Source of the DNA: Malachius bipustulatus
Taxonomy: Eukaryota; Arthropoda; Insecta; Coleoptera; Melyridae
DNA: 64,000 nucleotides
Direction: 5' to 3'
NCBI GenBank assembly: GCA_910589415.1
Contig: OU342630.1
Coordinates: 80,906,186 to 80,970,185, forward strand
Shown: positions 7,197 through 63,114 of the stretch, in pieces
Position numbering within the stretch: the first letter of the stretch is position 1
Layout of the letters: each line of letters begins with the position of its first letter
Made by a program: the position numbers and the translations under genes
The notes under the pieces: generated by a model
The model's input: the letters and a program-made list of their open reading frames with translations, nothing else
Told to the model about the DNA's origin: nothing
The model's database searches: none

Positions 7197-8007
7197 CAGG
7201 GTGTCAATTTGAAAACTTGCCACCCCCGAGTTCCCCTTAAAAATGTTTCTCAAAGAAATCCCGAAACAGGCCAATTTTGCCTTTTTACGTTCTATTGACG
7301 TAACCTTTTTTTATAGATTATGCTCCTTGGCTGAGTAATGACGACATTGTCTATTTTTTTTTAATTGGATACTATGTATATTATTACGTTTTCAGATTGT
7401 CTGAGAAAATCCAGTAAGAATGGTTTTTACAGTTGCAGTTTAAATTGAGTAGGATGTGAGTTAAAAGCAAATAAAAATAGCAATTTTTCATTTTAAAAGC
7501 AGTGTACATGGGAAACGGCTCTAAATATCTAAAAACGGCTTACATGTGCATACTTTAACTTTTCATGTACTCTCCTATGATGTAGATGAATTTTTTTATA
7601 GGGTGATGAAAAATCTTTACACTGTACGACTGTACGAAAGTTAAGATAGGGACATGTGAGCCGTTTTCCAATATTTTGAGCCGTTTCCAATGTACACTGC
7701 TTTCAAAATGGATATATAATTGCGATTTTCAATTGTTTATAACTAATAACCTACTCAATTTTAACTGTAACTGTAACAACCATTCTTACTGGATTTTCTA
7801 AGACCATTCTGTCGAGTAATAATATACAGGGTGTCCAATAATAATAAAAAAGTTGTAATTACTCAGCCAAAGAACATCCCGTATAAAAGAATATTACGTC
7901 AATAGAACATAAATTAAAAGACAAAATGGACCTCTGTTTCGGGATTTATTTGAGAAACATTTTTTAAGAGGAATTCGGGGGTGGCAAGTTTTCAAATTGT
8001 CACCCTG
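7197..8007. mobile_element. palindromic DNA element, CAGGGTG ends
   Basis: The left end CAGGGTGTCAATTTGAAAAC is mirrored by the right end GTTTTCAAATTGTCACCCTG. The arms continue inward (ACTTGCCACCCCCGAGTTCC / its complement at about 7965). The flanking dinucleotide is CA on both sides, either a target duplication or mutated TA. The inner sequences resemble those of the preceding and the 9956-10820 elements. It is non-coding and presumably mobilised in trans. Confidence 0.8.
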
Positions 8008-9353: not shown

Positions 9354-9955
9354 TTATGCAGAGATTCTACCGAGGATTCTACAAAGTAAGGGTTGAAAAC
9401 ATAAATTATATAACTGATTACATAATTATTTAGGAAATTATCGTTTATGAATACGGGCGTAAAGTTATTAAGTGACGCCATAGATCTTTTGTTAGTTTAT
9501 GCGAATATGAAATTAAATTGAACACAGTTTGGCAACGTCGGCACAGTAGGAATTCCTTTTACAGTATTTACACGCGCTCCTTAAAACATGTGCATATCTC
9601 GACGTTCTAAAATGTAATAATAATGTTAATGTTAATAATAAAAAAAAATGTTAATAATTTAATTATTATTATTATTTATGATGAATGGAAGCTTAGAAGT
9701 CGAAGAAAATGAAATGAAGTATTTTTTATTGGATTATTATACCGGCTATCGCCTGGTATAAATAGGCATACCGTTGATAGGAAATCCCATGCAAATTTTA
9801 ATACCCCTTAATATTAGGTATCTCCCCGATTCATTTTAAAACAAAATTGTATCAGACTTTCTTGAAGACCCTTGTATGATGCACTCACGTGCAAAATGCG
9901 AATAATTATCATCCAGCGAATTAAGAGATATTTTGAAAAACGCTTTCTTAAATTT

Positions 9956-10820
9956 GTACCGGGTGGGCATTTAAGAATGAACAGCGGCCATATCTTGGGA
10001 AATATTGATCCTACAGTTTCAAAATGAAAATTTTCCTGACATAAGTGACTATGCGAAATGCAATGAAAATATTTTCAAGATGGTCGCACTTCCGGAAATA
10101 CCGGAAGTTGACACCTACTTCGTTATTTTAACGGGGACACCCAGTAAAATATTATATTTTTTAAATGTCTGAAGAAATCGAATACAGGTGGTTTTCACCA
10201 CAGGAATTTAGATTGAGCGGTTTATGAGTTATAAACAAGTGAAAATCGCAATTTTCCAACTTCAAAGCAGTGTAGAACTAGAACGGCTCAATATATCTAA
10301 AAACGGCTTACATGTCCCTATCTTAACTTTTTACAAGGTACCTATTGTATTATGTAGTTTAGATTTTTCTACAGGGTGATGAAAAATCTGGTAATTTTCA
10401 TCACCCTGTATAAAAATTCAAACCACATGGTATGATACCTTGTAAAAAGTTAAGATAGGGACATGTAAGCCGTTTTTAGATATATTGAGCCGTTCTAGTT
10501 CTACACTGCTTTGAAGTTGGAAAATTGCGATTTTCACTTGTTTATAACTCATAAACCGCTCAATCTAAATTCCAATGGTGAAAACCACCTGTATTCGATT
10601 TCTTCAGACATTTAAAAAATATAATATTTTACAGGGTGTCCCCGTTAAAATAACGAAGTAGGTGTCAACTTCCGGTATTTCCGGAAGTGCGACCATCTTG
10701 AAAATATTTTCATTGCATTTCGCATAGTCACTTATGTCAGGAAAATTTTCATTTTGAAACTGTAGGATCAATATTTCCCAAGATATGGCCGCTGTTCATT
10801 CTTAAATGCCCACCCGGTAC
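9956..10820. mobile_element. 865-bp near-perfect palindromic element, CCGGGTG ends, TA-flanked
   Basis: Arms of about 430 bp each are almost identical over their whole length, from GTACCGGGTGGGCATTTAAG to CTTAAATGCCCACCCGGTAC. The centre is the same CAGGGTGATGAAAAAT / ATTTTCATCACCCTG core seen at 6900-6936. TA flanks both ends, consistent with the TA target duplication of Tc1/mariner-type cut-and-paste elements. The high arm identity suggests recent activity or arm homogenisation. No frame. Confidence 0.9.
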
Positions 10821-10894
10821 AATAAAAATTCTGTTTTAGAAATGTTTTTTAAATTAATTTCCAATAGGTAATGCAAAGATATGGAAAAAATAAG

Positions 10895-11608: not shown

Positions 11609-12605
11609 CAGGTGGTTAACAATTCGATGCTCACCATTAGGATCTCGGAAACGGTAAAAGATCCAGGGTGGGCAGGGTGTGTTAAATTAGAGAAAAGTTG
11701 CAAAATTCTATGCTTATTATGAATTTGAAAGAAAATTTATAGAAACTTCAGGCGTTGCTGAAATATCCTGAAAAAACTTGAAAATGGAGATTTCTTATTT
11801 CAATCATATCATTTTCATTATTAAAAAGAAATTGAAATATTTTTCTAGGCTTACATAAGTCATCAAAAGGTATCATCTGTCATTTCCAATATTTTCAAGG
11901 ACTACTAGATCCCAGAGTTTTCATAGCCAACTTTTGTTTTTCTTGTGGCCGCCCTATTGTTTTTTCGTGTCATTCGCTATTAAAAAAAATCACGAAAATA
12001 AATAATCTATCAAATTAAAAATCTTAAAAATTTTTGTTATTTAGTCGAAAAAAATAACCTTTGTTTAACCGAATGTCATAAAAAACCTATAAAACCTATA
12101 AGGCAAGCAATGTCAAGTGGCGAAGTCATATTGACGTGATTTTGTGAAACCATTTTTTTTTCAAATAAAGAATAAAATTTTTAAGAAATTTGATTTGAGA
12201 TAAGAAATTTTAATTTGATAGATTGTTTCCTTGATTTTTTTAATAGCGAATGACACGAAAAAACAATATGGCGGCCATAAGAAAAACAAAATTTGACTAT
12301 GAAAACTCTGGGATCTAGTAGTCCTTGGAAATTTTGGAAATGACAGATGATACCTTTTGATGACTTATGTAAACCTAGAAAAATATTTCAATTTCTTTTC
12401 AATAATAAAAAAGAAATGATTGAAATAAGAAATCTCCATTTTCAAGTTTTTTCAGGATATTTCAACAACGCCTGAAGTTTCTATAAATTTTCTTTCAGAT
12501 TTTAATAAGCATAAAATTGTGCAACTTTTCTCAAATTTAACCCACCCTGTATCTTTTACCGTTTCCGAGATCCCAATGGTGAGCATCGAATTGTTAACCA
12601 CCCTG
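11609..12605. mobile_element. palindromic DNA element (997 bp), CAGG(G)TGG ends
   Basis: Left end CAGGTGGTTAACAATTCGAT and right end ATCGAATTGTTAACCACCCTG are mirror images apart from one missing G. TA flanks both ends. Inside is a second nested CAGGGTGGG / CCCACCCTG pair, and deeper a shared core (ATGGCGGCCATAAGAAAAAC) also present at 25372 and 45101. Non-coding. Confidence 0.88.
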
Positions 12606-14029: not shown

Positions 14030-14477
14030 AAACTGCAAAAAATAAATTTCAAAATTTTTTATTCTTCTTTTTCCTTAAAAAAATACAATTTTTTAGATAG
14101 AATATCATAGAGAAATTAAAAAACACCATGAGGCAAGCAGTATGACTTCATATTGAAGTATTTCAGCGAATTTTTTTTTGTTTTTCTTCGAAAAAAGAAG
14201 AATAAAAATTTTTGAAATTTACTTTTTGAAGTTTATTGGTTTTTGGTTTCCATTATTTTTTTCATACCGAATTACATAGAAAAACAATATGGCGGCCATA
14301 AGAAAAACAAAAGTTGGCTATGAAAACTTTGAGATCTAGTTGCGGCTTTGAAAATTTTTGAAAAATCAAATTCCTATTAAGCATCAAATTGTGCAACTTT
14401 TCTCTTATTTAACCGACCCTGTATCTTTTACAGTTCCCGAGATCCCAATGGTGAGCATCGAATTGTTAACCACCGTG
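14030..14477. repeat. half (right arm) of the 11609-12605 element family
   Basis: Contains the core ATGGCGGCCATAAGAAAAAC near 14289 and the outer arm AATGGTGAGCATCGAATTGT ending CACCGTGTATAC, i.e. the same right end as the complete element with one substitution. The left arm is missing. Confidence 0.75.
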
Positions 14478-21407: not shown

Positions 21408-21481
21408 TTCGATTTACTAATATGATTTTGTCATTCTAGGGTGGTTCGATTTACTAATATGATTTTGTCATTCTAGGGTGG
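21408..21481. repeat. perfect 37-bp tandem duplication
   Basis: The 37-base unit beginning TTCGATTTACTAATATGATT and ending GGGTGG occurs twice without a mismatch, so the duplication is young or an assembly artefact. It lies in the intron just upstream (in transcription sense) of the 20941-21143 exon. Confidence 0.95.
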
Positions 21482-22022
21482 TATTCGCAATCGTGGGATG
21501 CCAAAGTGGTTTAAACAAAAAACACTTTTGCCCTTTCAACCATTTTAAATGAAGAAAGCAGATTTTAACAGTCGAGGTTGAGAGTTCATAAGTTTTATTA
21601 GGGACTCTGCAGGGACTAACAATGAGTTGACGATTGTGCTTTATTAGAGGTCTATTAAGAGGTACAGGGTTTTTATAGATGTACCAACACTAGTGTCCAC
21701 CCTCCGTCCACGACTCCGTTAATAATTTTCGTGTTCGTTGATTTATTGAAATTTTTAATTTTTTCATGATCAAGACACGTGTCATGTCATCATAAACAGG
21801 ATAAAAAAAAACAAATTTTCTCTTTAATTCGCTTTAAAAATCAAAGAAAATGCAGAACTTACACCATAATTTATGGACTCTAATTCGGAAATCGTAAATT
21901 AAATCGGTCATGAAGAAAATAATGAAACTTACGTCACAACGAAATGAAAACAATGAAAATGACGTCATACGCATATTGTATACGTTTGCCCGATATTATA
22001 GAAAATGGCTTAGTAGACTAAT

Positions 22023-22552: not shown

Positions 22553-22749
22553 TCATTCTGCCGCAACAGGTTGCAGCTGGTCCCTGTGGTGTTTCTTCAT
22601 ATGTAGCATCATGCTAAACTTCCTCTTGCAGGTATAATCACAATGTTGGCACACGTGCTTCTGAGAATTTGAACAATCTTGATAGAAATGAGCTTTCATT
22701 GTTTTTATATTCTTATACTTCTTATTGCAACGAGGACAGTTAATTTTAT
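22553..22749 (-). CDS. lola: lola-like isoform exon, C2HC + C2H2 fingers
   Basis: Exon of 64 residues from a TTTCGCAG acceptor to TGA. Finger 1 runs CPRCNKKYKNIKTMKAHFYQ then DC (complete C2HC). Finger 2 runs CQHCDYTCKRKFSMMLHMKK then H, with one extra Cys inside. The tail is HRDQLQPVAAE. AATAAA on the minus strand lies about 100 bases past the stop. No start codon of its own, so it must be spliced to upstream exons. Confidence 0.85.
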
Positions 22750-23630: not shown

Positions 23631-24125
23631 GATTAGGTACTTAGATCCTTATACTTATTGTAAGTAAAGAAGGTATTATACCTACACACTTATGATTAAT
23701 TTCAGAAATTTATCACTAAAATTTTCTAAAGCTGTTTGAATTAATTCAGCGACAGCATTTTGTCCAATGAACACATTGTCTCAAATAACTTGTTGCCGGC
23801 ACCTTTTTAAAGAACATTCTTTTTAATTTTTTGAATATAGAAATGACAAATGACACGTGCTGTCACGTTTTGCAACATGGCGAATTTTCTTTTTTTTTCC
23901 CACGGCAGGTCCTATCATATTACATCGGCTCGTTAGAAAACACTTACAAACAACTTCAATGACATCTTACAATATGAGATTGAAAAATCATTAAAAATGT
24001 ATTCATTATAAACAATCATTTGAATTTTTTTGGGGATTTAGGTGTTAATTCAATTGCCACTAAATTCTAATTCCTTTTACAGAACGAATTAGAAAACTTT
24101 TGCACAGCATGTGAGGTGAAACACA

Positions 24126-24172
24126 GACATGGACGGTACCGTTTCGTCCTTATTTGGACTCATCAGCATGTC
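24126..24172 (-). ncRNA. type I hammerhead ribozyme motif
   Basis: On the minus strand all conserved parts are present in order and spacing: stem I 5' strand GACATG, core CTGATGA, stem II GTCC-AAATAA-GGAC, core GAAA, short stem III ACG-GTAC-CGT, cleavage triplet GTC, stem I 3' strand CATGTC. Stem I pairs over 6 bp, stem II over 4, stem III over 3-4 with a tiny loop, the compact form typical of ribozymes in Penelope-like elements, retrozymes and SINE-like satellites. Cleavage would fall after position 24132. No reverse transcriptase frame is adjacent. A 9-bp hairpin (TTCTAATTC...GAATTAGAA, 24065-24094) follows it on the minus strand. Not assignable to a host element from this copy alone. Confidence 0.85.
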
Positions 24173-25371
24173 ACATCAGTCAGGAACACACTACACATAC
24201 TATGCGAAATTTTGGAACGAAAATTTAGTCTTAACTGGTGCTTGATAGTTGTAGTTGTAGTGGCACCCTAAGTGGTTCAATATTACTTAATATAAAATAT
24301 CTATGCGATATACATACACGATATGAACATATACGATATGAACATATCTATACAAATTAGTAATTTATTTTGACCGTGTTATACCATGTCCAGTTATACC
24401 GTGCGAATACTGTGTCTTTATACATGCACAGGAACATTGTTAGGCTCTATTTCAATGAGTTACTATAGAGATCTACTTAATTGTTGGTATAGTTACAAAC
24501 AATATAATTGAAGCAGCTTACCGTATAGACATTATGAAATGCAATTCGCCTAAGTATAAAGAAAGACTCAGTAGGTACTTACAAAGTATACTATACATAT
24601 ATTAGGAATTAATTAATTCGGAAAGTATTTAGTTTAATAAAAGCACACTATTTTTCCTACGCCAAACAGATGAACTTTATTTTTTGTTCTTCCGCAGGGG
24701 TTTCTACAATATGATTAATTTAACAATACGGAAATTTAGTAAACAGGTGTTATATCGATGTTAACTTTATACTTACAGAATTTGAGTTTACAATAGAAAC
24801 CAAGAGTAATATCAACAGGAGGTAGAAAGGCTATAATCACATCAAAAATACAAACGATTTCTTCTTCTAATTTGGGCAAAAATACTTAAAAGTTAAGAAT
24901 AGTTCTAATATCTGGCTGAAATGATGGACACAAATACTTTTTTTTAATTTTTAAATGAATAACAGATGATTTAGAAATTGTTTTTTGACGAGTTTATTAT
25001 TATGTAAGTTTTCTATTATTACCTTTTGTAATTATAAAGAAAAATCTCTATTAGAATCCAACAAAATTTAAATACTACGAGCTCTATGACAGACAAAGAA
25101 AACTAAAACCTAAAGTAGCATTACACATTTTTTTTAATTGATCAAGAAAATAGCCAATAATATAACTTTATTCCGCTTTAAGTAGAGATTTTCCCCAAAT
25201 AATTAGTGTGTCTGCTTTTTTTTTAAATTATTCTAATTACTTCGTCACAAAGATTTAAAAAAAGTCTTCACTAATAATTGTATTCATTTACTACTCGCCT
25301 CTTCCTAAGCTTTCTTCTTTCTGATGTGAATATTCCTATTATGTACTAATAATATTTTGTATTCCTATATA

Positions 25372-26366
25372 CAGGGTGCACCATATATCCTTCTCTATAT
25401 TGCTCTTAACGCTAACAGATACAAGGTCGGTAAACAAGTCCAAAGAAGCGCAATTTTGTGGCCATCTCGAATCAGTCAAGACATACCAAATATCTGTGAC
25501 CGTTTCTGAAATATCCTGAAAAAACTGAAAAATCGAGATTTCTTATTTTTTCCATATCTTTTTTATTATTGGAGATTAATAAATAATTTTTTGTGGGCTT
25601 ACATAAGTCGGCAAGAGCTACCCATATGACATTTCAAAAATTTTCAAAGCCGACTAATCCCAGAGTTTTCATAGTCAACTTTCGTTTTTCTTATGGCCAC
25701 CATATTGTTTTTTTATGTTGTTGGATATAAAAAAAATAATAAAAACCAAAAATTGTTGAACTTCAACAAAATAATTAAACATTTTTTTATTCTTCTTTAT
25801 TCTTTACAAAAAAGACAACTTTTTAGACCGAATTTCATAGATAAATTAAAAAACCATAAGACAAGCACTATTTCGGCGTATTTCAACAATATTGACGTAT
25901 TTCGACGATTTTTTTTAGGTATTTTCTTTGAAAAAAGAAGAATAAAAAAAAAAATCTTTTTTTTTTTGAAATTTATTAATTTTTGGTTTCCATTATTTTT
26001 TTCATATCGACGACATAAAAAAATAATATGGCGGCCATAAGAAAAACGAAAGTTGACTGTGAAAACTCTTGGATCTAGTCGGCCTTGAAAATTTTTGTAA
26101 TGACAGGTGGGTAGCTCTTGACGGCTTATGTAAACCTCGAAAAAATTATTCATTAATTTCCAATAATAAGAAAGATATGACAAAAATAAGAAATCTCGAT
26201 TTTTCAGTTTTTTCAGGATATTTCAGGAGCTGTCACAGATATCTTGTATGTCTTGACGGATTGGAGATGGTCACAATACTGCGCATCTTTTCTCTAATTT
26301 AACCGACTCTGTATCTCTTAGCGTTCAGGAGATAGCAATATAGAGAAGGATACATGGTGCACCCTG
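25372..26366. mobile_element. palindromic DNA element (995 bp), CAGGGTGCACCAT ends, TA-flanked
   Basis: CAGGGTGCACCATATATCCT at the left mirrors TACATGGTGCACCCTG at the right, and the arms pair nearly to the centre. It is a close relative of the element at 45101-46088. Two opposed open frames inside are caused by the arms and are not genes. It lies in the intron about 100 bp beyond the 26464-26636 exon in transcription sense. Confidence 0.9.
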
Positions 26367-26463
26367 TATTTAAAACAGTATCAAAAAATTATATTAAATT
26401 TTTTCTCGGTCTTGGTACTCTAGTTTACGAATTTTGCAGTCCCCTATATGATTTCAGCATTAT

Positions 26464-26636
26464 TCAATGCCTCGAACAGTGTGTAAGAAAGTTGAATTTT
26501 CTTTTAAATTTTTTTCCACAAATTTTACAGTCATAAGTAGCTTCTTTTCCACAATCGATACTCAAGTGAGTATTAAGGCTGCCCTTATTCTTATAAGTTT
26601 TGTTGCATTTCAAACATTTAACACCAGCACCATCAC
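26464..26636 (-). CDS. lola: lola-like isoform exon, C2HC + C2H2 fingers
   Basis: Exon of 56 residues after a TTTTTTGTAG acceptor, ending at TGA directly after the last His. Finger 1: CLKCNKTYKNKGSLNTHLSI then DC. Finger 2: CKICGKKFKRKFNFLTHCSR then H. The SLNTHLSIDCGKE segment is nearly the same as in the 28975-29141 exon, marking the two as a duplicated pair. No clear AATAAA before the transposon that begins about 100 bp downstream, so its poly(A) site may have been affected by that insertion. Confidence 0.85.
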
Positions 26637-28974: not shown

Positions 28975-29141
28975 TTAATAGTGCCTGTTAATGTGCACTG
29001 AGAGGTCATACTTTCTTCTGAATGACTTATGACAAATTTCACATCTATGACTTTTCTCTTTTCCACAATCAATAGACAGGTGAGCATTTAGACTTTTTTT
29101 ATTCTTATAGGTTTTGCTACACCTCAAGCATTTATTGTCAC
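28975..29141 (-). CDS. lola: lola-like isoform exon, C2HC + C2H2 fingers
   Basis: Exon of 54 residues from a TTTTTTCAG acceptor to TAA two residues after the last zinc ligand region (HINRHY). Finger 1: CLRCSKTYKNKKSLNAHLSI then DC. Finger 2: CEICHKSFRRKYDLSVHINR then H. An AATAAA (plus-strand TTTATT at 28927-28932) lies about 43 bases past the stop, giving a very compact terminal exon. Confidence 0.88.
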
Positions 29142-30077: not shown

Positions 30078-30280
30078 GGAACCGCTCTCATGTCGAAGCG
30101 GGTAGGAAGCGCGCAGGATTGTCTGCAGAACGTAGAAGGGCTTGCATATGGCAACGCTGAGAACGTGTTGGAGCGTAGCAAGCAGAGAAAGTGTGCTCGG
30201 ATCCTGTTTTTCAAAAGTCAATCAGAAAATGTGATTTTCTGTAAAAAAAGTGCAAAACATTTCTTTTCAAGTACGGTCCT

Positions 30281-30553
30281 GGATAGCTCAGTGAAGTTGG
30301 CACCCCTAAATGCAAATTTTTATAATTTAAACGAAATTCGTTTTTCCACCGTTTGTCCACGTTTGTCCAATCAACATTTTCGCTAACCCACCCTTCAAAA
30401 ATAATAATATATAATTCGATTTTTAAAATCTTTTTCAGAAGGGTGGACAAACGAAAATTTTGGTTGGACAATCGTGGACAAACCGTGGACAAACGAATGC
30501 CGTCTAAATTTAAAAAAATTCGCACTTAGGGGTGAAAACTTCACTAAGCTGTC
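30281..30553. repeat. palindromic element with TTTGTCCACG repeats
   Basis: GGATAGCTCAGTGAAGTT at the left mirrors AACTTCACTAAGCTGTCC at the right. Each arm carries repeated GTTTGTCCACG(G). Part of its end sequence (CTGGATAGCTC) recurs at 62275, and the GGACAAACG motif recurs in the 48.3-49.1 kb region. Confidence 0.7.
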
Positions 30554-31895
30554 CTGGATTTAGATTTAGATTTGCCTCGATTTCCCTTACCTGGCATTTA
30601 ACGCATACGTCGCATTGGTCATTAATCCCCACTATAAGTAACTACTAAAAATATCAAAAATATAAGTTTTTATATCCTCTTCAAATATTATTTTGACTTT
30701 TTTCTTAGCTTGCTTGGTTTTTGAGATATTCAATTTTGCCATAAGCCAAAAAAAAAAAGAGTTTTTTTGAAGAAATTAGTCATGTAGGTATTCTTTTTTA
30801 CAATGAGAAATTTTTTGATATGTACCTATCTTCAACGGTTAACGAGTTACTAGCGAAATAAGATTTTCTTCACCAAAGGGGAGTTTTATAGGGGAGGCGG
30901 AACCCCCAGAATTGGATTTTTGTGGTTTTATGATTTAAGATACCTCCACTAACAGTTTCTGAAGAAGAAATTAATCCAAATTTTTCTGAACTTGTGTGCG
31001 TGTTATATTTGCGTATTTTTACTTTACAAGACTAGACTATCATTAGGGCCCGGCGACTCGGGGCCCACCGGGAAATGCCCGGCCAGCACACGCCTGAGTA
31101 CACAGTAACGAGTTTTACGAAGAATACCTTTTAGGTGTAAAATTAACTGATGCTTAAAGTCCACTTAAAATTACATTAGAAAATCTAACCGTTTGGAACT
31201 ACTCGGAACGAGGCGCGGTACTTGCGCCCTCTATGATAGTCAGATAATAAAAACAAGTTCGTGGACTATGTCAGCTCCAAAATATGAATACAAAATTTCA
31301 TTACAATGTTGCCAGTAGTTTCAATTTAATAATAATAATGTGTTTAATATCTTGAATCCGGTTGCCTTACTAATTTTCTTTACTAACCTAACCACACTTA
31401 TTTTTCATAGTTCTACCTATCCTAGCAACGGAGGTACTTTTTTAAACATCCTGTATATATCCTGTATAATAAAAGTCCAATTTGATTGAATGTTGCAGTT
31501 ATGCATGTACTAGTCCAGTAATATAGAATTCCGTACATAACGTGACAACGTGTCTTGTGCCTTAACAATAACACGAACATGGAAATACCCTTTTCAATAT
31601 GATTGGAAGAATATAATTTTTCTACGACCACCTCCAAGGAAACCAGCTACGTATATGTATTTTTCTAAACCTACAATAAAAATGGAAGTAGGTTATATAC
31701 AAACAAGAATACAAGTAGGTAGAAACAATAAATCTTTACAAGAATTCAATACAAAAATTATTAAAAACACAAGAATACACAAATACACATAGGTACACCT
31801 AAAATTGACATTATGTGTCAATATTAAAATACGAAAATCGGACTTTCTAGACAATCCTTAATTCCGTAATTTTTTTGTGACCTATCGGATTCATA

Positions 31896-34933: not shown

Positions 34934-35130
34934 TCAAGAAAACTCCGTCTCAAGAGTGGGATGAGCTAACATGTGCTTCTTGAGATTATATCTTCTTTTG
35001 AACGTCTTTTTACATGTTGGACAAACATGACGTTTGGAGCGAATACAGTCTTGTGCTAAATGCGCACTCAAAGTGTTCTTATTTTTATATTCTTTAAAAC
35101 AGCCTGGACATGTAATATTGTTCCTATGAT
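34934..35130 (-). CDS. lola: lola-like isoform exon, C2HC + C2H2 fingers
   Basis: Exon of 64 residues from an AATTTCAG acceptor to TGA. Finger 1: CPGCFKEYKNKNTLSAHLAQ then DC. Finger 2: CPTCKKTFKRRYNLKKHMLA then H, followed by a short acidic tail PTLETEFS. The KNKNTL.AHL.QDC segment is shared with the 42671-42852 exon. AATAAA (plus TTTATT at 34885-34890) lies about 44 bases past the stop. Confidence 0.88.
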
Positions 35131-35945: not shown

Positions 35946-36175
35946 CTAAACCAAAGGATCGTTACAAGAATCTTCCTCCTCATCATCCTCCTGCTCCACA
36001 AATTGATGTGCAAATCGTATAATGTGCCTTTTCAGGTCGTGTTTTCTTCTAAATTTGACATTGCATACAAGACACGCATATTCCTTGGACCGTCCGCAGT
36101 CTAGATGCTGATGGGACTGCAAAGCCGTTTTGGATACATATCTTTTCTTACAGTTTTTACACAAAAACGGAAACC
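35946..36175 (-). CDS. lola: lola-like isoform exon, acidic tail
   Basis: Exon of 75 residues, the longest of the array, from an AATTTTTAG acceptor to TAG. Finger 1: CKNCKKRYVSKTALQSHQHL then DC. Finger 2: CLVCNVKFRRKHDLKRHIIR then FAH, i.e. five residues between the two His instead of three or four. It carries a distinctive acidic C-terminus, VEQEDDEEEDSCNDPLV, seen in no other member. AATAAA lies about 140 bases past the stop. Confidence 0.86.
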
Positions 36176-37655: not shown

Positions 37656-37725
37656 TTGTTAATAAGGCATTTAACAAGAATTTTAATATTTAATTAACCT
37701 TTTTAAACAATAATTATTATTATGC

Positions 37726-37868
37726 TGATTGATGATTAATAAAACGCTGTTTTAAAAAATTCTACTGTATATTGATGAAAAATATACAGTAATATTATAT
37801 AATATTATTCATCAATATACAGTAGAATTTTTTAAAACATTAGTGTTTTATTTATCATCAATCAGTGT
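37726..37868. repeat. nested palindrome, same family as 9050-9353
   Basis: TGATTGATGATTAATAAAAC and TTCTACTGTATATTGATGAA are mirrored by TTCATCAATATACAGTAGAA and TTTATCATCAATCA. The right flank GATTCTACAAAGTAGGGGTT matches that of the 9050-9353 copy. Confidence 0.8.
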
Positions 37869-38990: not shown

Positions 38991-39690
38991 CAGGGTGGCA
39001 TAACAAAAACATAACAGGCCTAATAACTTGTAGACTGAAGATGTACGCGAAAAACGTCGAAACATTCGATTTTGTTATCGAGGGGGACATATTTGGGGGA
39101 CAAATTCAACTATCCAACTTCATTCCTTGGCAGCGGTAGCTAGCAGCTATCCCTTTGCTTTTATCATCATAGGGAACAGATATCGAGTGATACATCGTTG
39201 GAAAACTACTTCAATTTTCTTTACAACGATATCTCATTTTTGAGTTTCGGCTAAAAGAATATTACAGGGTGAGTCGATAAAACAGGCTTTCTCAACAATT
39301 ACTTTATTTCCTTCGAAAATATACGAGAACAAAATTAATCACAATGTAAATGATCAAATGTGTAAATATGATCAAAGTAGTAACCATGGTAAAGTGCATT
39401 GTGTATTAAAGTTTTATTTCTCCGAAAATTTTCACAAGGAATATTATAGTAACAATTGTCAAGAAAACCTTTTTTATCGATTCACCCTGTAATATTTTTT
39501 AGGGGAAACCCGAAAAGTAAGATATCGTTGTAAGTAAAGAGAATTCAAGTGCTTTCAAATGACAAATCACTCGATTTCCGTTCCCTATGATATTATAAGC
39601 AAAGGGGTAACTAGCCCTGTCAAGGTGATGAACTTGGATAGTTCAATTTTTCACCCAAACATGTCCCCCTCGATAACAAAGTGTGCAATT
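38991..39690. mobile_element. layered palindromic element, right end truncated
   Basis: The left end CAGGGTGGCATAAC lies at a TA. Outer arms pair (ATCGAGGGGGACATATTTGG / GTCCCCCTCGAT; AGGGAACAGATATCGAGTGA / TCACTCGATTTCCGTTCCCT). An inner complete CAGGGTGAGTCGAT...ATCGATTCACCCTG unit occupies 39265-39489 at the exact centre. The last part of the right arm is missing. Confidence 0.78.
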
Positions 39691-41089: not shown

Positions 41090-41580
41090 TGAAGTCATAC
41101 TGCTTGCATTAGAGTGTTTTAATTTCTCAATGACATTCGGTCTAAAAAGTTCTTTTTTTTTTAGAAAAAAAAGAACAATTTTTTTTTCATTTATTTTTTG
41201 AAGTTTATTAGTTTTTGGTTTCCATTATTTTTTTCATAACGAACGAAATAAAAAAAACAATATGGCGGCCATAAGAAAAACGAAAGTTGACTATGAAAAC
41301 TCTGAGATCTAGTCGGCTTTGAAAATTTTTGAAACGTCAGATGACTAGCTCTTAACGGCTTATGTAAGCCTACGAAAAATTATTTATTAATTTCCAATGG
41401 TAAGAAAGATATGGCCAAAATAAAATTTCTCGATTTTTCAGTTTTTTCAGGATATTTCTGGAACCGTCACAGATATCTTGCATGTTTTGACGGATTCGAG
41501 ATGGCCACAAAATAGCGCAACTTTTATCTAATTTAACCGACCTCGTATCTTCAATGGTTTAGGATATTCCTGTAGTGGCC
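41090..41580. repeat. single arm of the 25372/45101 palindrome family
   Basis: Shares the core ATGGCGGCCATAAGAAAAAC (41262-41281), GTTTTGACGGATTCGAGATGG and AACCGACCTCGTATCTT in the same order as the right arms of complete copies, and stops just before the next element at 41606. Confidence 0.75.
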
Positions 41581-42670: not shown

Positions 42671-42852
42671 TCAACATTTCTCGCTTTCGTGCTTTTTAAT
42701 AAAATGCGTTTTTAAGTCATATTTTCTCCTAAAAGTTAGCTGACAAACTGCACACGAAAACCGTTTTCCACGTCCACAATCCTGGCCTAAATGTGCATTC
42801 AAAGTGTTCTTATTTTTGTATATTTTGTCGCATTTTGGGCAGATTATCACAC
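42671..42852 (-). CDS. lola: lola-like isoform exon, C2HC + C2H2 fingers
   Basis: Exon of 59 residues from a TTATTTCAG acceptor to TGA. Finger 1: CPKCDKIYKNKNTLNAHLGQ then DC. Finger 2: CAVCQLTFRRKYDLKTHFIK then KH, with four residues between the His. The tail is ESEKC. AATAAA (plus TTTATT at 42619-42624) is about 47 bases past the stop. Confidence 0.88.
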
Positions 42853-45044: not shown

Positions 45045-46133
45045 TGTTTATTTTATTATGATTTACATGTTTCGGTAAGTCATGTTTCCTTTTCGATCTA
45101 CAGGGTGCACCATGTATCCTTCTCTATATTGCTATCTCCTAACGCTAACAGATACAGGGTCGGTTAAACAAATCCAAAGGAGCGCAATTTTGTGGCCATC
45201 TCGATTCCGTCGAGACATACAAGATATCTGTGACCGTTCCTGAAATATCCTGAAAAAACTGAAAAATCGAGATTTCTTATTTTCGTCATATCTTTTTTAT
45301 TATTGGAGATTAATGAATAATTTTTTGTGGGCTTACATAAGTCGTTAAGAGCTACCCATCTGACATTTCAAAAATTTTCAAAGCCGACTAGATCCCAGAA
45401 TTTCAATAGTCAACTTTCGTTTTTCTTATGGCCACCATAGTGTTTTTTTATGTTGTTCGGTATAAAAAAAATTATAAAAACTAAAAATTGTTAAACTTCA
45501 AAAAATAAATTAAAAAATCTTTTATTCTTCTTTTTTCTTTACAAAAAAGACACATTTTTAGACCGAATTTCATAGATAAATTGAAAAACCATAAGGCAAG
45601 CACTATTTCGGCGTATTTTACAAATGTTGACGTTTTTCGACGATTTTTTATTAAGTTTTTCTTTGAAAAAAGAAGAATAAAAATTAAAAAAAAAATTTCT
45701 TAAGTTTATTAATTTTTGGTTTCTAACCAAAAAATATGAAAAAAATAATATGGCGGCCATAAGAAAAACGAAAGTTGACTGTGAAAACTCTTGGATCTAG
45801 TAGGCCTTAAAAATTTTTGAAATGTCAGATGGATAGCTCTTAACGGCTTATGTAAGCCTACGAAAAATTATTTATTCATTTCCAGTAGTAAAAAAGATAT
45901 GAGGAAAATAAGAAATCTCGATTTTTCAGTTTTTTCAGGATATTTCAGGAACGGTCACAGATATCTTGCATGTTTTGACGAATTCGAGATGGCCACAAAA
46001 CTGCGCATCTTTTCTCTAATTTAACCGAGCCTGTATCTCTTAGCGTTCAGGAGATAGCAATATAGAGAAGGATACATGGTGCACCCTGTATAAGGACACA
46101 GAGCACACCTGAACTTCTTTGGTTTCCCGCAAT
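45045..46133 (-). pseudogene. lola: lola-like isoform exon destroyed by transposon insertion and deletion
   Basis: The two flanks of the 45101-46088 transposon are halves of a finger 2 closely related to that of the 46317-46501 exon: CGKPKKF.CALCPY on the right flank, RSKRKHDL then KHV.H on the left flank. The junction falls exactly at the codon for the Arg/Tyr boundary, with TA duplicated. The first finger is missing: after the CCCGCAAT segment the sequence jumps straight to material matching the upstream intron of the neighbouring exon, so there is no acceptor and no C2HC part. The last His spacing is also altered. Its intron (46134-46316) aligns with 46502-46680, showing origin by tandem duplication of exon plus intron. 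Confidence 0.85.
45101..46088. mobile_element. palindromic DNA element (988 bp) inserted in a zinc-finger exon
   Basis: CAGGGTGCACCATGTATCCTT at the left mirrors AAGGATACATGGTGCACCCTG at the right; arms pair nearly throughout. TA occurs at both junctions and only once in the intact homologous exon (GATCTATAAGGG near 46379-46390), a directly visible TA target-site duplication. Sister copy at 25372-26366. The open frame on the minus strand at 45539-45760 is a by-product of the arms. Confidence 0.93.
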
Positions 46134-46316: not shown

Positions 46317-46501
46317 TCATAATTTATTTTTCTGATGGAGATTAATCGCATGCTTCTGTAGATCATGTTTCCTTTTCGATCTATAAGGGCACAGAGCACA
46401 ACTGAATTTCTTTGGTTTCCCGCAATCTTGATATACATGATTATTAAGGGATGTATGATGTTTGTATTGCTTTTTACATTTAGGGCATTCCATTTTTGGA
46501 C
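46317..46501 (-). CDS. lola: lola-like isoform exon, CPYRSKRK subfamily
   Basis: Exon of 60 residues from a TTTTTCTAG acceptor to TGA. Finger 1: CPKCKKQYKHHTSLNNHVYQ then DC. Finger 2: CALCPYRSKRKHDLQKHAIN then LH. The nearest relatives are the broken exon to its left and the 46686-46876 exon, only 184 bases upstream in transcription sense. No clear AATAAA nearby. Confidence 0.88.
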
Positions 46502-46685
46502 CTAGAAAAATACATCCTAATGAAGCAAAACTACAAAATTTTACTATCACATCCATAATTTAGCAATCATCCATAGGCAGGTACAGGTACAAATAAATAT
46601 AATTAACTTCATTTTACGTATAAGAATTGTCATCGAAAAGATAAAAGCATTTTAATGGCTAAAAAAATATTATATGTACATATTA

Positions 46686-46876
46686 TTATTTCAATACATT
46701 ATTTTTCTGATGGAGCTTAATCGCATGCTTCTGTAGATCATATTTCCTTTTTGATCTGTACGGACAAAGGTCGCATATGAAATTTTTCTGTTTTCCACAA
46801 TCTTTACTTAAATGAGTGTATAATGAATTGCTGTTCTTGTATTTCTTGTTACAAACAGGACACTCCAGAAGTTCAC
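46686..46876 (-). CDS. lola: lola-like isoform exon, CPYRSKRK subfamily
   Basis: Exon of 62 residues from a TTTTTTAG acceptor to TAA. Finger 1: CPVCNKKYKNSNSLYTHLSK then DC. Finger 2: CDLCPYRSKRKYDLQKHAIK then LH. The DNA around the finger 2 helix (GATCTACAGAAGCATGCGATTAA) is almost unchanged from the 46317-46501 exon, so the duplication is recent. The short 184-base gap between the two exons means competing 3' splice sites lie very close together. Confidence 0.88.
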
Positions 46877-49774: not shown

Positions 49775-49956
49775 TTATTCATTTTTCTGATGGCAAGTAA
49801 TAAAATGTCTCTCTAAATTATGTTTTCTTTTCGATCTATAGGGACATATATCACACGTGAAATTTTTCTGTTTTCCACAATCTTTACTTAAATGAGCACT
49901 TAATGAATTATGGTTCCTGTACTTCTTGTTACACATATGACACTCAAATGTTTCAC
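49775..49956 (-). CDS. lola: lola-like isoform exon, CPYRSKRK subfamily
   Basis: Exon of 59 residues from a TTTTTTTAG acceptor to TAA. Finger 1: CHMCNKKYRNHNSLSAHLSK then DC. Finger 2: CDICPYRSKRKHNLERHFIT then CH. AATAAA (plus TTTATT at 49730-49735) lies about 40 bases past the stop. Confidence 0.88.
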
Positions 49957-54004: not shown

Positions 54005-54186
54005 TTAAAAGTTTTTCAGATGGCGATTATTCACGTGCTTCTGTAGATCATATTTCCTTTTCGATTTGTACGGACATATCTCACATGTGAAATTTTTCTG
54101 TTTTCCGCAATCTTTATTTAAATGAGTAGATAATGAAATGTAGTTCTTGTACATCTTGTTACAATTGGGACACTCCTTCGGCTCAC
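54005..54186 (-). CDS. lola: lola-like isoform exon, CPYRSKRK subfamily
   Basis: Exon of 59 residues from a TTTTTTTAG acceptor to TAA. Finger 1: CPNCNKMYKNYISLSTHLNK then DC. Finger 2: CEICPYKSKRKYDLQKHVNN then RH. AATAAA (plus TTTATT at 53941-53946) lies about 60 bases past the stop; between them is the perfect palindrome GGTATTGGTACCAATACC. Confidence 0.88.
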
Positions 54187-55398
54187 CTAAAAAAATAGTC
54201 TAATTATGCAAAACAACATTACTTTATCCGTACACAATAATTATTAACAAAATTTTAATATAATTATTATTAAATACATAATATTAAGGTCATAATATTA
54301 AATTAATGAGCACCAACAATACAAAGAGACATCTAATAAGAAGAGAAGGGCGAGGAGCGCTTCACAATATTTAAATCAAATAAAACTACAAGATGCAATA
54401 TGATACTTAGATGTTTATTAATCTCTGCCTGAAATTCTACTAACTCGTTCTGTGGTCGCTTGTTGAAATAAAATTTTCTTGTGTCAATGGACGGCCATAG
54501 ATGAATTGAAAATATCTACCTACAGTTGTTTTAAGTTAGATATGTTAATATTGTTAATATTGAAATTTAGTAAGTTTTTTTTTCTTTAGTAAGCATTAGC
54601 ACACGCTAGATGGCATGGAGCTATACAGATTACTTGTGAAACTGTAGAAGCAGACTGTCTGTTTCAATACTTATCTCTGCGAAGAGAGGAAGATGTGCGA
54701 AACGGTGGCGCATCTGTTTCCAGACTAGAAGAATTTCTATTTATCAAAGGAATTGATAATTTTACCCTTATTTCCAGGAAAAATATATGTAGGTCATACC
54801 TGACCTGACCTGAATTGCTAAAAGAAATTCCATGAATACAAAATCCTGTCATGGGTGAGGATTTAATTTGGGAAATTGTGGAGGGATACTTTTCTCTCTA
54901 CCCCGATCTCCCTCTTCCTAGATTTTTACAATAACTTTAATAAAAAATAACAATTAGGTATCTTACGTTTATTAATATGAAATAAATAATACACAGCATT
55001 CAAGAAATTAGATTCTCTATTAAATAAGAATAATTGGGAATAATTTGATGCCGTCATGATAAAAAGACGTAAGTATACTTACTTAATATTACATTATGCA
55101 AGGTAACTAATTAAAGAGAAGATTATCTACGTCTAAGATTATGTTACAGCAAAACTGTCAATAATTCGTTTTAGGAAATATTCCAATTCAAACCTGAGTA
55201 AGCGACAATTTTGCGGCCATATTTAAGTAATGAGAATCAGTAAGCGCTAATGATCATTCAGATTGATTGTGAAATTGCAGTTACGTCTTTCAATAATAAT
55301 GTGTTTGTGTTTCATTTCTGCCTTCGGTAAAAGTGAGAAAGAGAAATTTCCTGTGCATTATCAACTCATTTTTCAAAACACATGAATTTCAAAAAATC

Positions 55399-55693
55399 AT
55401 GGCGGCCGTTTTGGGCCCGGAGAAGACGAGTTTTCGAAGAGCATGATAGTGTTGATATTTGTCCTTGCTATCGAAAAATAAAAAGCTCAGCAACGCATCA
55501 AGGGCAGTTTTTATAGCCGAAAATTGAAAATTATAACACCTGAACATACGGATTCGGAATTTTAAAAAATAATGGTGGCCTTGATGCGTTGCTGGGCTTT
55601 TTATTTTTCCAAACCAAGGACAAATATCAACCCTATCATGCCCTTTTGAAAACTCGTCTTGTCCGGGCCCAAAACGGCCCCCGTGGTTTTTTG
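55399..55693. repeat. inverted repeat element
   Basis: Blocks GGCCGTTTTGGGCCCGG, ACGAGTTTTCGAAGAGCATG and CAGCAACGCATCAAGG on the left are mirrored by CCTTGATGCGTTGCTGGGCT, CATGCCCTTTTGAAAACTCGT and CCGGGCCCAAAACGGCC on the right. An outer direct similarity (AATTCGGAATC...) extends beyond. Non-coding. Confidence 0.75.
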
Positions 55694-55954
55694 AAATTCC
55701 GAATCCGCATATTCAGGTGTTGTAATTTTCGATTTTGGGCTATAAGGAGAAAGATCAATCCCGTTCAAGCAATGATAGCAGATTATTTATGTAATTAAAT
55801 TATCATCGTACCGGAGCCGGATGCTTAGCCACTCTCGTTGCTAAGTTTTCGTTGATAGCTTCACCCGAATGACAGATTGAGGGAAAATTAATTAGATTAT
55901 TATAATAAAATCTCTTAATACTTTGACCAAAATAAATAAATTACTCTAATCTTC

Positions 55955-57136: not shown

Positions 57137-57309
57137 CTAGATGATGCGATGACAAATCCTCACATGTTTCATTAGATTATACTTTCGTTGGGATTTATAT
57201 GGACATGAGAGGCATTTGAATTTTTTTCGTTTTCCGCAGTCTTTATACAAGTGATTAGCTAATGAATTCATGTGCATGTATTTCTTTTGACAGTTTGGAC
57301 ACTCCACTC
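57137..57309 (-). CDS. lola: lola-like isoform exon, CPNCQKKY subfamily
   Basis: Exon of 56 residues from a TTATTTCAG acceptor to TAG. Finger 1: CPNCQKKYMHMNSLANHLYK then DC. Finger 2: CLSCPYKSQRKYNLMKHVRI then CH. It combines finger 1 of the upstream subfamily with a CPYKS-type finger 2, so it sits between the two subfamilies in both position and sequence. No AATAAA close by. Confidence 0.88.
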
Positions 57310-58518: not shown

Positions 58519-58718
58519 TTATCCATCATTATTGACAACACGCAGTTTTCGTTGAGGATTATGACGATTATACATATGTTTTTGTAAATTTTGTTTCCTG
58601 CAGGACTTATAGGAACAGAAATCGCACTTGACTTCTGGTTTTCCGCAGTCTTTACGTAAATGAGATCCTAATGAATTGCTATTTTTATATTTCTTTCGGC
58701 AATTTGGACACTCCACTC
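58519..58718 (-). CDS. lola: lola-like isoform exon, CPNC..KKY / CSYKS subfamily
   Basis: Exon of 65 residues from a TTATTTCAG acceptor to a stop at 58519. Finger 1: CPNCRKKYKNSNSLGSHLRK then DC. Finger 2: CDFCSYKSCRKQNLQKHMYN then RH. The linker is one residue shorter than in the CPYRSKRK exons (CGKPEVKC). It has a longer basic tail, NPQRKLRVVNNDG. AATAAA (plus TTTATT at 58473-58478) is about 40 bases downstream. Confidence 0.88.
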
Positions 58719-59278: not shown

Positions 59279-59457
59279 TCAAGGCGAGGTTCCATGACGC
59301 TTATTCATATGTTTCAGTACATTATGTCTCCTGGTAGATTTATAGGAACATAAATCGCACTTGATTTTCGGTTTTCCGCAGTCTTTAGTTAAATGATTAA
59401 CTAATGAATTATTTTTCTGGTATTTTTTTTGACAATTTGGACACTTAACTCCTACTC
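59279..59457 (-). CDS. lola: lola-like isoform exon, CPNCQKKY / CSYKS subfamily
   Basis: Exon of 58 residues from a TTATTTCAG acceptor to TGA. Finger 1: CPNCQKKYQKNNSLVNHLTK then DC. Finger 2: CDLCSYKSTRRHNVLKHMNK then RH. Linker CGKPKIKC. AATAAA occurs only 14 bases past the stop (plus 59260-59265) and again near 59185. It lies 560 bases from the 58519-58718 exon, with similar intron sequence between. Confidence 0.88.
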
Positions 59458-62920: not shown

Positions 62921-63114
62921 TTAAATTCTTGTCGAGTTTTGCAGTCTTCGAGGTTCCATATGTTTTTTCATATGTAAAAGTATATTATTCCTCCTGGTGG
63001 ATTCATAGGAACATAAATGACAACTGATTTTTGGTTTCCCGCAATCTCTTCTTAAATAAGCAGCTAATGATTGATAGCTCTTGTATTTCTTTTGACAGTT
63101 TGGACACTCGATCT
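62921..63114 (-). CDS. lola: lola-like isoform exon, first zinc site lacks its His
   Basis: Exon of 63 residues from a GATTTCAG acceptor to the stop at 62921; first of the array in transcription order. Finger 1 reads CPNCQKKYKSYQSLAAYLRR then DC: the zinc-binding His is replaced by Tyr (TAT for CAT), leaving C-C-Y-C. Finger 2 is complete: CHLCSYESTRRNNILLHMKK then H. Linker CGKPKISC. The tail is MEPRRLQNSTRI. The frame is otherwise intact, so the exon may still encode a one-finger protein or may be at the start of decay. Confidence 0.84.

Follow-up and report, generated by a model that had tools for sequence, protein, structure and literature searches.

A hammerhead ribozyme motif in an intron of a lola-type zinc-finger array is probably the relic of a non-autonomous retroelement

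The window (the whole 64-kb stretch of DNA analysed, C1:80906186-80970185) carries a type I hammerhead ribozyme motif on its minus strand, between two zinc-finger-pair exons of what is very probably the lola gene. The motif lies within a 5'-truncated copy of a dispersed repeat, next to an inverted tail piece of the same family. We consider it probable that it is the hammerhead of a non-autonomous ribozyme retroelement, preserved in an old, 5'-truncated copy in an expanded lola intron; it would be a real hammerhead of ordinary origin, the relic of a mobile element, in an unusual place. A literature search joining the hammerhead ribozyme with longitudinals lacking found no paper, and a further search listed six, none of which deals with this subject to judge by the titles. 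The motif and its predicted parts are the following.

24126..24172, minus strand: type I hammerhead ribozyme motif (RF00163, 35.1 bits, E 4.8e-5; strict descriptor)
24131..24132, minus strand: predicted self-cleavage site, between 24132 (C17) and 24131, from the GTC position in the hammerhead alignment
24194..24205, minus strand: 5' arm of a 12-bp distal stem I helix (in the majority sequence of the other loci all 12 pairs are standard)
24102..24113, minus strand: 3' arm of this helix, pairing with 24194-24205

The motif (C1:80930311-80930357) contains the invariant core CUGANGA / GAA / A15.1-U16.1 / H17 and three stems; the letters and coordinates are those claimed in the original prediction, which had described the invariant blocks and stems of 6, 4 and 3-4 bp on the minus strand. 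Stem I pairs 24172-24167 with 24131-24126 (6 bp), the core CTGATGA occupies 24166-24160, and stem II pairs 24159-24156 with 24149-24146 (4 bp, loop AAATAA) and is followed by GAA. Stem III can be read as ACG/CGT (3 bp, loop GTAC) or as ACGG/CCGT (4 bp, 2-nt loop), its sequence being palindromic (ACGGTACCGT), and the scissile C is 24132, with the predicted cut between this position and 24131. A covariance-model search, suggested as a check on the motif, bore it out: cmscan aligned it with model positions 1-45 of 45 of RF00163 at 35.1 bits, only 1.1 bits over the gathering cut-off of 34, with an E-value of 4.8e-5 computed for 64 kb and 4227 families. The hammerhead was the sole Rfam family above its gathering score in the 64-kb window, and the same scan found no second hammerhead above the cut-off. 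The strict descriptor (core, stem I of at least 5 bp, stem II of at least 4 bp and stem III of at least 3 bp) retrieved one locus in the window, in two overlapping readings, and none in 300 dinucleotide-shuffled windows on both strands; pattern scans for the motif in viral and genome contig collections gave 0 matches. The narrow margin of 1.1 bits might suggest a motif arisen by chance in an AT-rich intron. However, given the E-value, the absence from the 300 shuffles and the presence of the same motif at the same place across a repeat family, which refutes this reading, its probability is practically nil.

Past an internal loop, stem I is prolonged by the 12-bp distal helix (24205-24194/24113-24102). 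As controls, 1000 shuffles gave a helix this long in 9, 27 and 45 cases, and 2000 random places in the window gave one in 26, 80 and 153, with flanks of 40, 60 and 80 nt, respectively. With this internal loop and the distal stem I, a tertiary contact between loop I and loop II, as in canonical motifs, is a candidate only. The original prediction had taken the motif for one of the minimal ribozymes found, among others, in Penelope-like elements; this did not hold, and a minimal Penelope hammerhead was rejected, since helix III is present (3-4 bp) and stem I is extended. In energy-only folding, which leaves out the tertiary contacts and terms of hammerheads, a competing fold was preferred both for the 47-nt RNA (-12.2 vs -10.1 kcal/mol for the hammerhead, a gap of 2.1) and for a 123-nt RNA (-40.7 vs -32.5 kcal/mol, a gap of 8.2); because these models omit such contacts, we regard the preference as a caution and not as a refutation. 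Together with a stem III that is tiny and palindromic, it is a point in favor of a dead relic, which would not cleave as a monomer but only as a dimer or with the help of a protein. Cleavage that is better in dimers, or confined to them, is described for the motifs of viroids, newts and amphibians, and may apply to Penelope motifs (PMC7761336, PMC6155905); for the PAc Penelope hammerhead, cleavage was seen only when its protein was present (PMC11167929), and the window has no second hammerhead above the cut-off. On the other hand, helix III is present, monomer cleavage is ascribed to most invertebrate type I motifs (PMC7761336), and stem I is extended, with an internal loop. We give a dead motif clearly less credit than a working one, without dismissing it, and we lean towards expecting the window hammerhead to be active in vitro.

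The surrounding sequence belongs to a repeat family, of which the window holds two pieces.

24018..24255, minus strand: 5'-truncated body of the dispersed hammerhead element (element about -10 to +222; own-genome matches and alignments)
24268..24296, plus strand: 29-nt tail piece, inverted relative to the body (in seven places it matches the strand opposite to the adjoining body)

The genome search for copies of 24060-24240 that had been proposed as a check returned dispersed copies. The host genome (544,256,285 bp in 52 contigs) gave 1445 first-look candidates for the query 24240-24060 and 1554 for the query 24600-23900, 40 of them being scored in each case, and main-place identity to the window copy was 86-94% in the first genome search and 80-91% in the second. 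The 40 scored copies are a lower bound; estimated from the first-look candidates, the family probably has over a thousand copies in the 544 Mb genome. We studied 39 loci (L001-L039, the window copy being L001), picked by similarity to the window copy. The second of these genome searches gave 30 loci (L040-L069) that stand outside the analysis: 26 are places already in the set, and the new loci L050, L063, L067 and L069 were left out of every count.

With element coordinates counted from window position 24240, the 39 loci share a unit from about -265 to +227. Their 5' ends differ from copy to copy, the furthest lying at about -275, and their 3' ends are clustered, with 8 loci at +170-195, 18 at +205-240, 12 at +250-275 and 1 at +299, the two main clusters being about 35 nt apart. 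In four near-complete units the longest frame has 54-72 codons and the G+C content is 32-37%. Junctions of head-to-tail units are crossed in L003 and L036 only, and from them we infer a unit length of about 521 nt and a template in the form of multimeric or circular RNA. A complete second direct copy was found in none of the 39 loci; on this ground the satellite reading was rejected, and with it the satellite-like membership that the original prediction had allowed for. The 29-nt tail piece, which corresponds to query 305-333, sits upstream of the window body on the minus strand, inverted. At seven other places it lies 6-30 nt beyond the 3' end, and in these seven cases the tail and the adjoining body match opposite strands. 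An inverted second piece occurs in 16 of the 39 loci (L002, L003, L007, L011, L013, L018, L020, L024, L027, L029, L031, L032, L034, L036, L038 and L039), although those of L013, L027 and L031, at least 700 nt away from the body, may have inserted separately. Five of the 39 loci are bordered by exact repeats of 9-13 nt (L009, 9 nt; L011, 13; L018, 11; L019, 10; L028, 13). In controls drawn from random pairs of flanks, up to 50 for each locus, the longest repeat was 11 nt, so that only the two 13-nt repeats (L011 and L028) exceed every control, and for the window copy no flanking repeat longer than 6 nt was found. Own-genome copies, inverted pieces and flanking repeats support the proposal that the motif is one monomer, left behind by a repeat that bears a ribozyme and resembles a retroelement.

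Several copies are flanked by inverted copies of the same end sequence, as might be expected if the family were a DNA transposon, or a foldback element, bounded by terminal inverted repeats and carrying a hammerhead by chance. This was rejected as very improbable, since the flanking repeats vary in length from 9 to 13 nt, the two ends are unequal, the 5' ends vary and there are head-to-tail junctions. Two known retroelement systems invite comparison. Like the animal non-LTR retrozymes described in PMC7229834, the family is dispersed, lacks a long frame, has a G+C content of 32-37%, bears a type I hammerhead with helix III and shows, where visible, flanking repeats longer than 4 bp. Unlike them, as they are presented there, its unit measures about 521 nt instead of 150-450 bp, full units in tandem occur in 0 of 39 loci, and it has inverted pieces and alternative tails. 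These last features fit the hallmarks of Penelope elements. Penelope pLTRs are described as inverted, most often head to head, with an optional tail of ~31 bp and TSDs of 8-10 bp (PMC3846280), and the Penelope enzyme cuts and extends both DNA strands and initiates reverse transcription internally (PMC11167929); the family has inverted pieces, an optional tail of ~30-40 nt, target-site repeats and a hammerhead within the repeat, as reported for pLTRs (PMC11167929, PMC3846280). Against the Penelope-type pattern, the 8 of 39 3' ends at +170-195 and the one at +299 fall outside the two main clusters. Further differences are that the shared sequence has no RT or GIY-YIG frame, and that the family hammerhead has a helix III, which Penelope hammerheads, described as minimal, usually lack (PMC7761336).

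Penelope-like frames are present in the host genome. In a search that scored 150 of 775 candidates, GIY-YIG domains sat in open frames, most with lengths of up to 823-855 aa; many form tandem arrays with a period of 3.1-3.5 kb, or inverted pairs. We take them for Penelope-like elements from the GIY-YIG domain, the frame length and the arrangement. Examples are found on C11, at C2:60.81-60.83 Mb, C3:53.64 Mb and C6:1.07 Mb, and elsewhere, in tandem at ~3.3 kb. Six of the many Penelope-like 3' regions (L074-L079) were compared with the family; they share no significant sequence with it (best E 0.039), and an autonomous partner was not found among these six. Five of the six contain a CTGANGA...CGAAAC core on the strand of the ORF, one having it on the opposite strand as well; each strand of the 64-kb window contains a single match to this pattern, the hammerhead itself among them. 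None of the L074-L079 cores reaches E 0.5 with RF00163.

The same genome also harbors a tandem family of 320-bp units whose type I hammerheads score 58.7 bits (L070, C1:2205850-2207250, at positions 166, 486, 806 and 1126). Successive units are identical at 320/320 and 320/320 positions and at 255/270 in the stretch ending at the edge of the fetched piece, and we regard the family as one of young retrozymes. At L034:2633-2677 a hammerhead of the 320-bp type lies between two pieces of a window-family copy. Both pieces include element positions 183-195, an overlap like that of a target-site duplication, which suggests the later insertion of a 320-type unit into that copy. Three types of hammerhead repeat thus occur side by side in one genome, namely young 320-bp tandem retrozymes, tandem Penelope-like elements carrying hammerhead-like cores, and the old, non-autonomous 521-nt family, whose insertions look Penelope-made, and this coexistence lends circumstantial support to the idea that Penelope enzymes move retrozymes. 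Our preferred account is that Penelope-type target-primed reverse transcription would have copied the element from an RNA, multimeric or circular, whose processing the hammerhead helped, and that one 5'-truncated copy would have inserted long ago, in sense orientation, between two alternative zinc-finger exons of lola, its ribozyme staying intact by happenstance. We have slightly lowered our support for this account because only two flanking repeats exceed all controls and the Penelope-like frames were recognized from GIY-YIG, length and arrangement.

The window contains 14 zinc-finger-pair exons of the lola type.

22553..22749, minus strand: first lola-type zinc-finger-pair exon downstream of the ribozyme (77 bits; acceptor, phase)
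26464..26636, minus strand: last such exon upstream of the ribozyme (Pfam zf-C2H2, 33.2 bits, cut-off 25.2)
28975..29141, minus strand: lola-type zinc-finger-pair exon (exon-model search; acceptor, phase)
34934..35130, minus strand: lola-type zinc-finger-pair exon (exon-model search; acceptor, phase)
35946..36175, minus strand: lola-type zinc-finger-pair exon (Pfam zf-C2H2, 32.5 bits; exon model; acceptor, phase)
42671..42852, minus strand: lola-type zinc-finger-pair exon (exon-model search; acceptor, phase)
46317..46516, minus strand: lola-type zinc-finger-pair exon (second in-frame acceptor 15 nt further in)
46686..46876, minus strand: lola-type zinc-finger-pair exon (exon-model search; acceptor, phase)
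49775..49956, minus strand: lola-type zinc-finger-pair exon (exon-model search; acceptor, phase)
54005..54186, minus strand: lola-type zinc-finger-pair exon (exon-model search; acceptor, phase)
57137..57309, minus strand: lola-type zinc-finger-pair exon (exon-model search; acceptor, phase)
58519..58718, minus strand: lola-type zinc-finger-pair exon (exon-model search; acceptor, phase)
59279..59457, minus strand: lola-type zinc-finger-pair exon (exon-model search; acceptor, phase)
62921..63114, minus strand: lola-type zinc-finger-pair exon (67.7 bits; outside the 13 exons of the model)

All 14 are on the minus strand, like the motif, which upholds the claim that the ribozyme lies on the strand of the host gene, and all 14 have an acceptor of one phase. 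The 77 bits of the exon at 22553-22749 come from a model built from 13 window exons, itself included, and its fingers fall below the Pfam cut-offs; Pfam was run on three window exons, two of which pass zf-C2H2. Four more zinc-finger pairs lie in the next 10 kb upstream of the window (L080), and 49 further zinc-finger matches, obtained in the genome search with an aphid lola protein (P0079; 88 of 560 candidates scored), extend from C1:80793330 to 81554903, all on the minus strand; 9 of these 49 have stop codons inside the aligned stretch, and some may be decayed or over-extended. There are thus at least 67 zinc-finger-pair matches (49 + 14 + 4) on one strand over about 762 kb, the single splice phase covering the 14 window exons while the L080 pairs and the 49 matches were counted by match alone. 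With the same query, the best genome match was a BTB exon at C1:81565432-81566196 on the minus strand (E 8.5e-46, 49%), and another BTB exon at C1:81568422-81568598, also minus, shows 69% over 59 aa of aphid lola. On the ground of these BTB exons and zinc-finger-pair matches, all on one strand, we call the host gene lola, which it very probably is, with a locus spanning C1:80793330-81568598. A homologue search with the exon downstream of the ribozyme gave nothing informative; a search with joined exons retrieved 91 proteins, the best being a leafhopper 'zinc finger protein 425-like' and one being named lola (P0079, E 2.8e-8).

About 635 kb separate the ribozyme from the BTB exon upstream of it, and at least five zinc-finger matches follow it downstream. 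A position just before the 3'-most lola exon was considered and is refuted by four matches downstream of the window (C1:80880668, 80824888, 80798330 and 80793330). This layout resembles that described for Nasonia and Apis lola, in which one 5' hub serves scores of 3' alternatives spread through hundreds of kb, with over 180 alternatives in Nasonia and 58 in Apis (PMC5000498). It differs from that description in having a ribozyme element in one intron, and its at least 67 zinc-finger-pair matches over ~762 kb are known from the genome sequence alone.

From the sequence and position of the motif, cleavage of the lola pre-mRNA is possible: the motif can probably fold in this RNA and would cut some nascent transcripts after 24132. 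The predicted cut is 1383 nt from the next acceptor. At 0.8 per min, the rate given for a coral retrozyme (PMC7229834), we calculated that 24-67% of nascent RNAs would be cut before this acceptor is reached, and at 0.1 per min 3-13%, for assumed polymerase speeds of 4-1 kb/min. According to PMC10919898, splicing is blocked by synthetic intronic ribozymes that are fast but not by those that are slow. Since the zinc-finger exons upstream would be untouched and slow intronic ribozymes are reported to be splicing-neutral, the effect on lola mRNA would probably be small, and we think it unlikely that the ribozyme has a measurable effect on lola. The original prediction had raised the possibility that distal exons are separated from the transcript; in such a case the hammerhead would cut the lola pre-mRNA ~635 kb from the BTB exon and partition the locus at the RNA level, the proximal part being made in cis and the distal part, with at least five zinc-finger exons, through exon tethering, internal promoters or trans-splicing. 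In Drosophila, at least one 3' exon of lola is described as trans-spliced, the 3'-most exon coming from its own precursor (PMC4528330), so that the gene could in principle tolerate being partitioned. We hold such a partition in this beetle to be very improbable; if true, a mobile ribozyme would act as an RNA-level divide in a gene known for trans-splicing in Drosophila. The lola copy may in any case serve as a natural test of a self-cleaving motif on the sense strand of a very long gene of the trans-splicing kind.

The other copies of the family tell how such a motif decays. Among 44 hammerhead regions aligned in the 39 loci, the core is kept in 22, and core plus stems, by our own criteria, in 9, including the window copy; the family hammerhead passes the Rfam cut-off in 4 of 39 loci (L001, L013, L016 and L036), of which L013 reaches 37.2 bits yet is classed as core-broken by the alignment criteria. 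In the majority letters of the other loci all 25 pairs (12 in distal stem I, 13 in stems I, II and III) are standard, which suggests that the ancestral element probably carried a type I hammerhead whose stem I was extended and whose helix III was short. Covariation across copies was not found: for distal stem I and stems I, II and III, respectively, 422, 216, 140 and 107 paired cells were observed vs 421.7, 216.4, 138.6 and 107.0 expected. The pooled substitution rate in the other copies is 5.9% in the hammerhead, not far below the 7.0 and 8.3% of the flanks. The window copy has changes in 0 of 47 hammerhead columns vs 18 of 194 flank columns (Fisher p 0.010, gaps counted), none of the 45 other aligned copies being free of hammerhead changes, and its longest substitution-free run spans 86 columns (permutation p 0.006).

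Such a pattern could hint at constraint, as if the host used the ribozyme, the insertion having been kept because cleavage in the intron regulates which distal lola exons arise in cis. The sense orientation in lola and the 24-67% predicted cut before the next acceptor at 0.8 per min point the same way, and there is precedent in the mammalian CPEB3 ribozyme, whose role is described as supported by inhibition experiments (PMC10919898), while a role for intronic hammerheads of amniotes has been proposed (PMC6155905). The lola motif resembles these cases in being a self-cleaving-type motif in an intron, in sense, and of type I as in the amniote hammerheads; those are reported as conserved between species (PMC6155905, PMC10919898), whereas the window copy looks like a repeat relic in the one genome examined. 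Moreover, this copy was picked because its motif was intact, and 7 of the 45 other copies also have clustered substitutions at p below 0.05; for these two reasons we do not read the pattern as selection. With 8.1% mismatch per hammerhead column in the others, a few per cent of copies would be intact by chance, which by our estimate makes about 30 of the 1445. Use by the host seems to us highly unlikely. As the other copies decay without covariation, the window copy is probably a relic that happened to stay intact.

The window contains other repeats. MicroRNA matches were all below the cut-off and were set aside. Five copies of one foldback repeat, which reaches about 1 kb, lie at 25349-26392, 45096-46091, 41097-41550, 14031-14360 and 12225-12563, and further long palindromes at 9954-10822 (96% self-complementary), 7197-8007, 39071-39680, 55384-55699, 30277-30558 and 37725-37865. 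At 21408-21482 there are two perfect tandem copies of 37 nt, each with CATTCTAGGGTGG, which resembles a splice acceptor.
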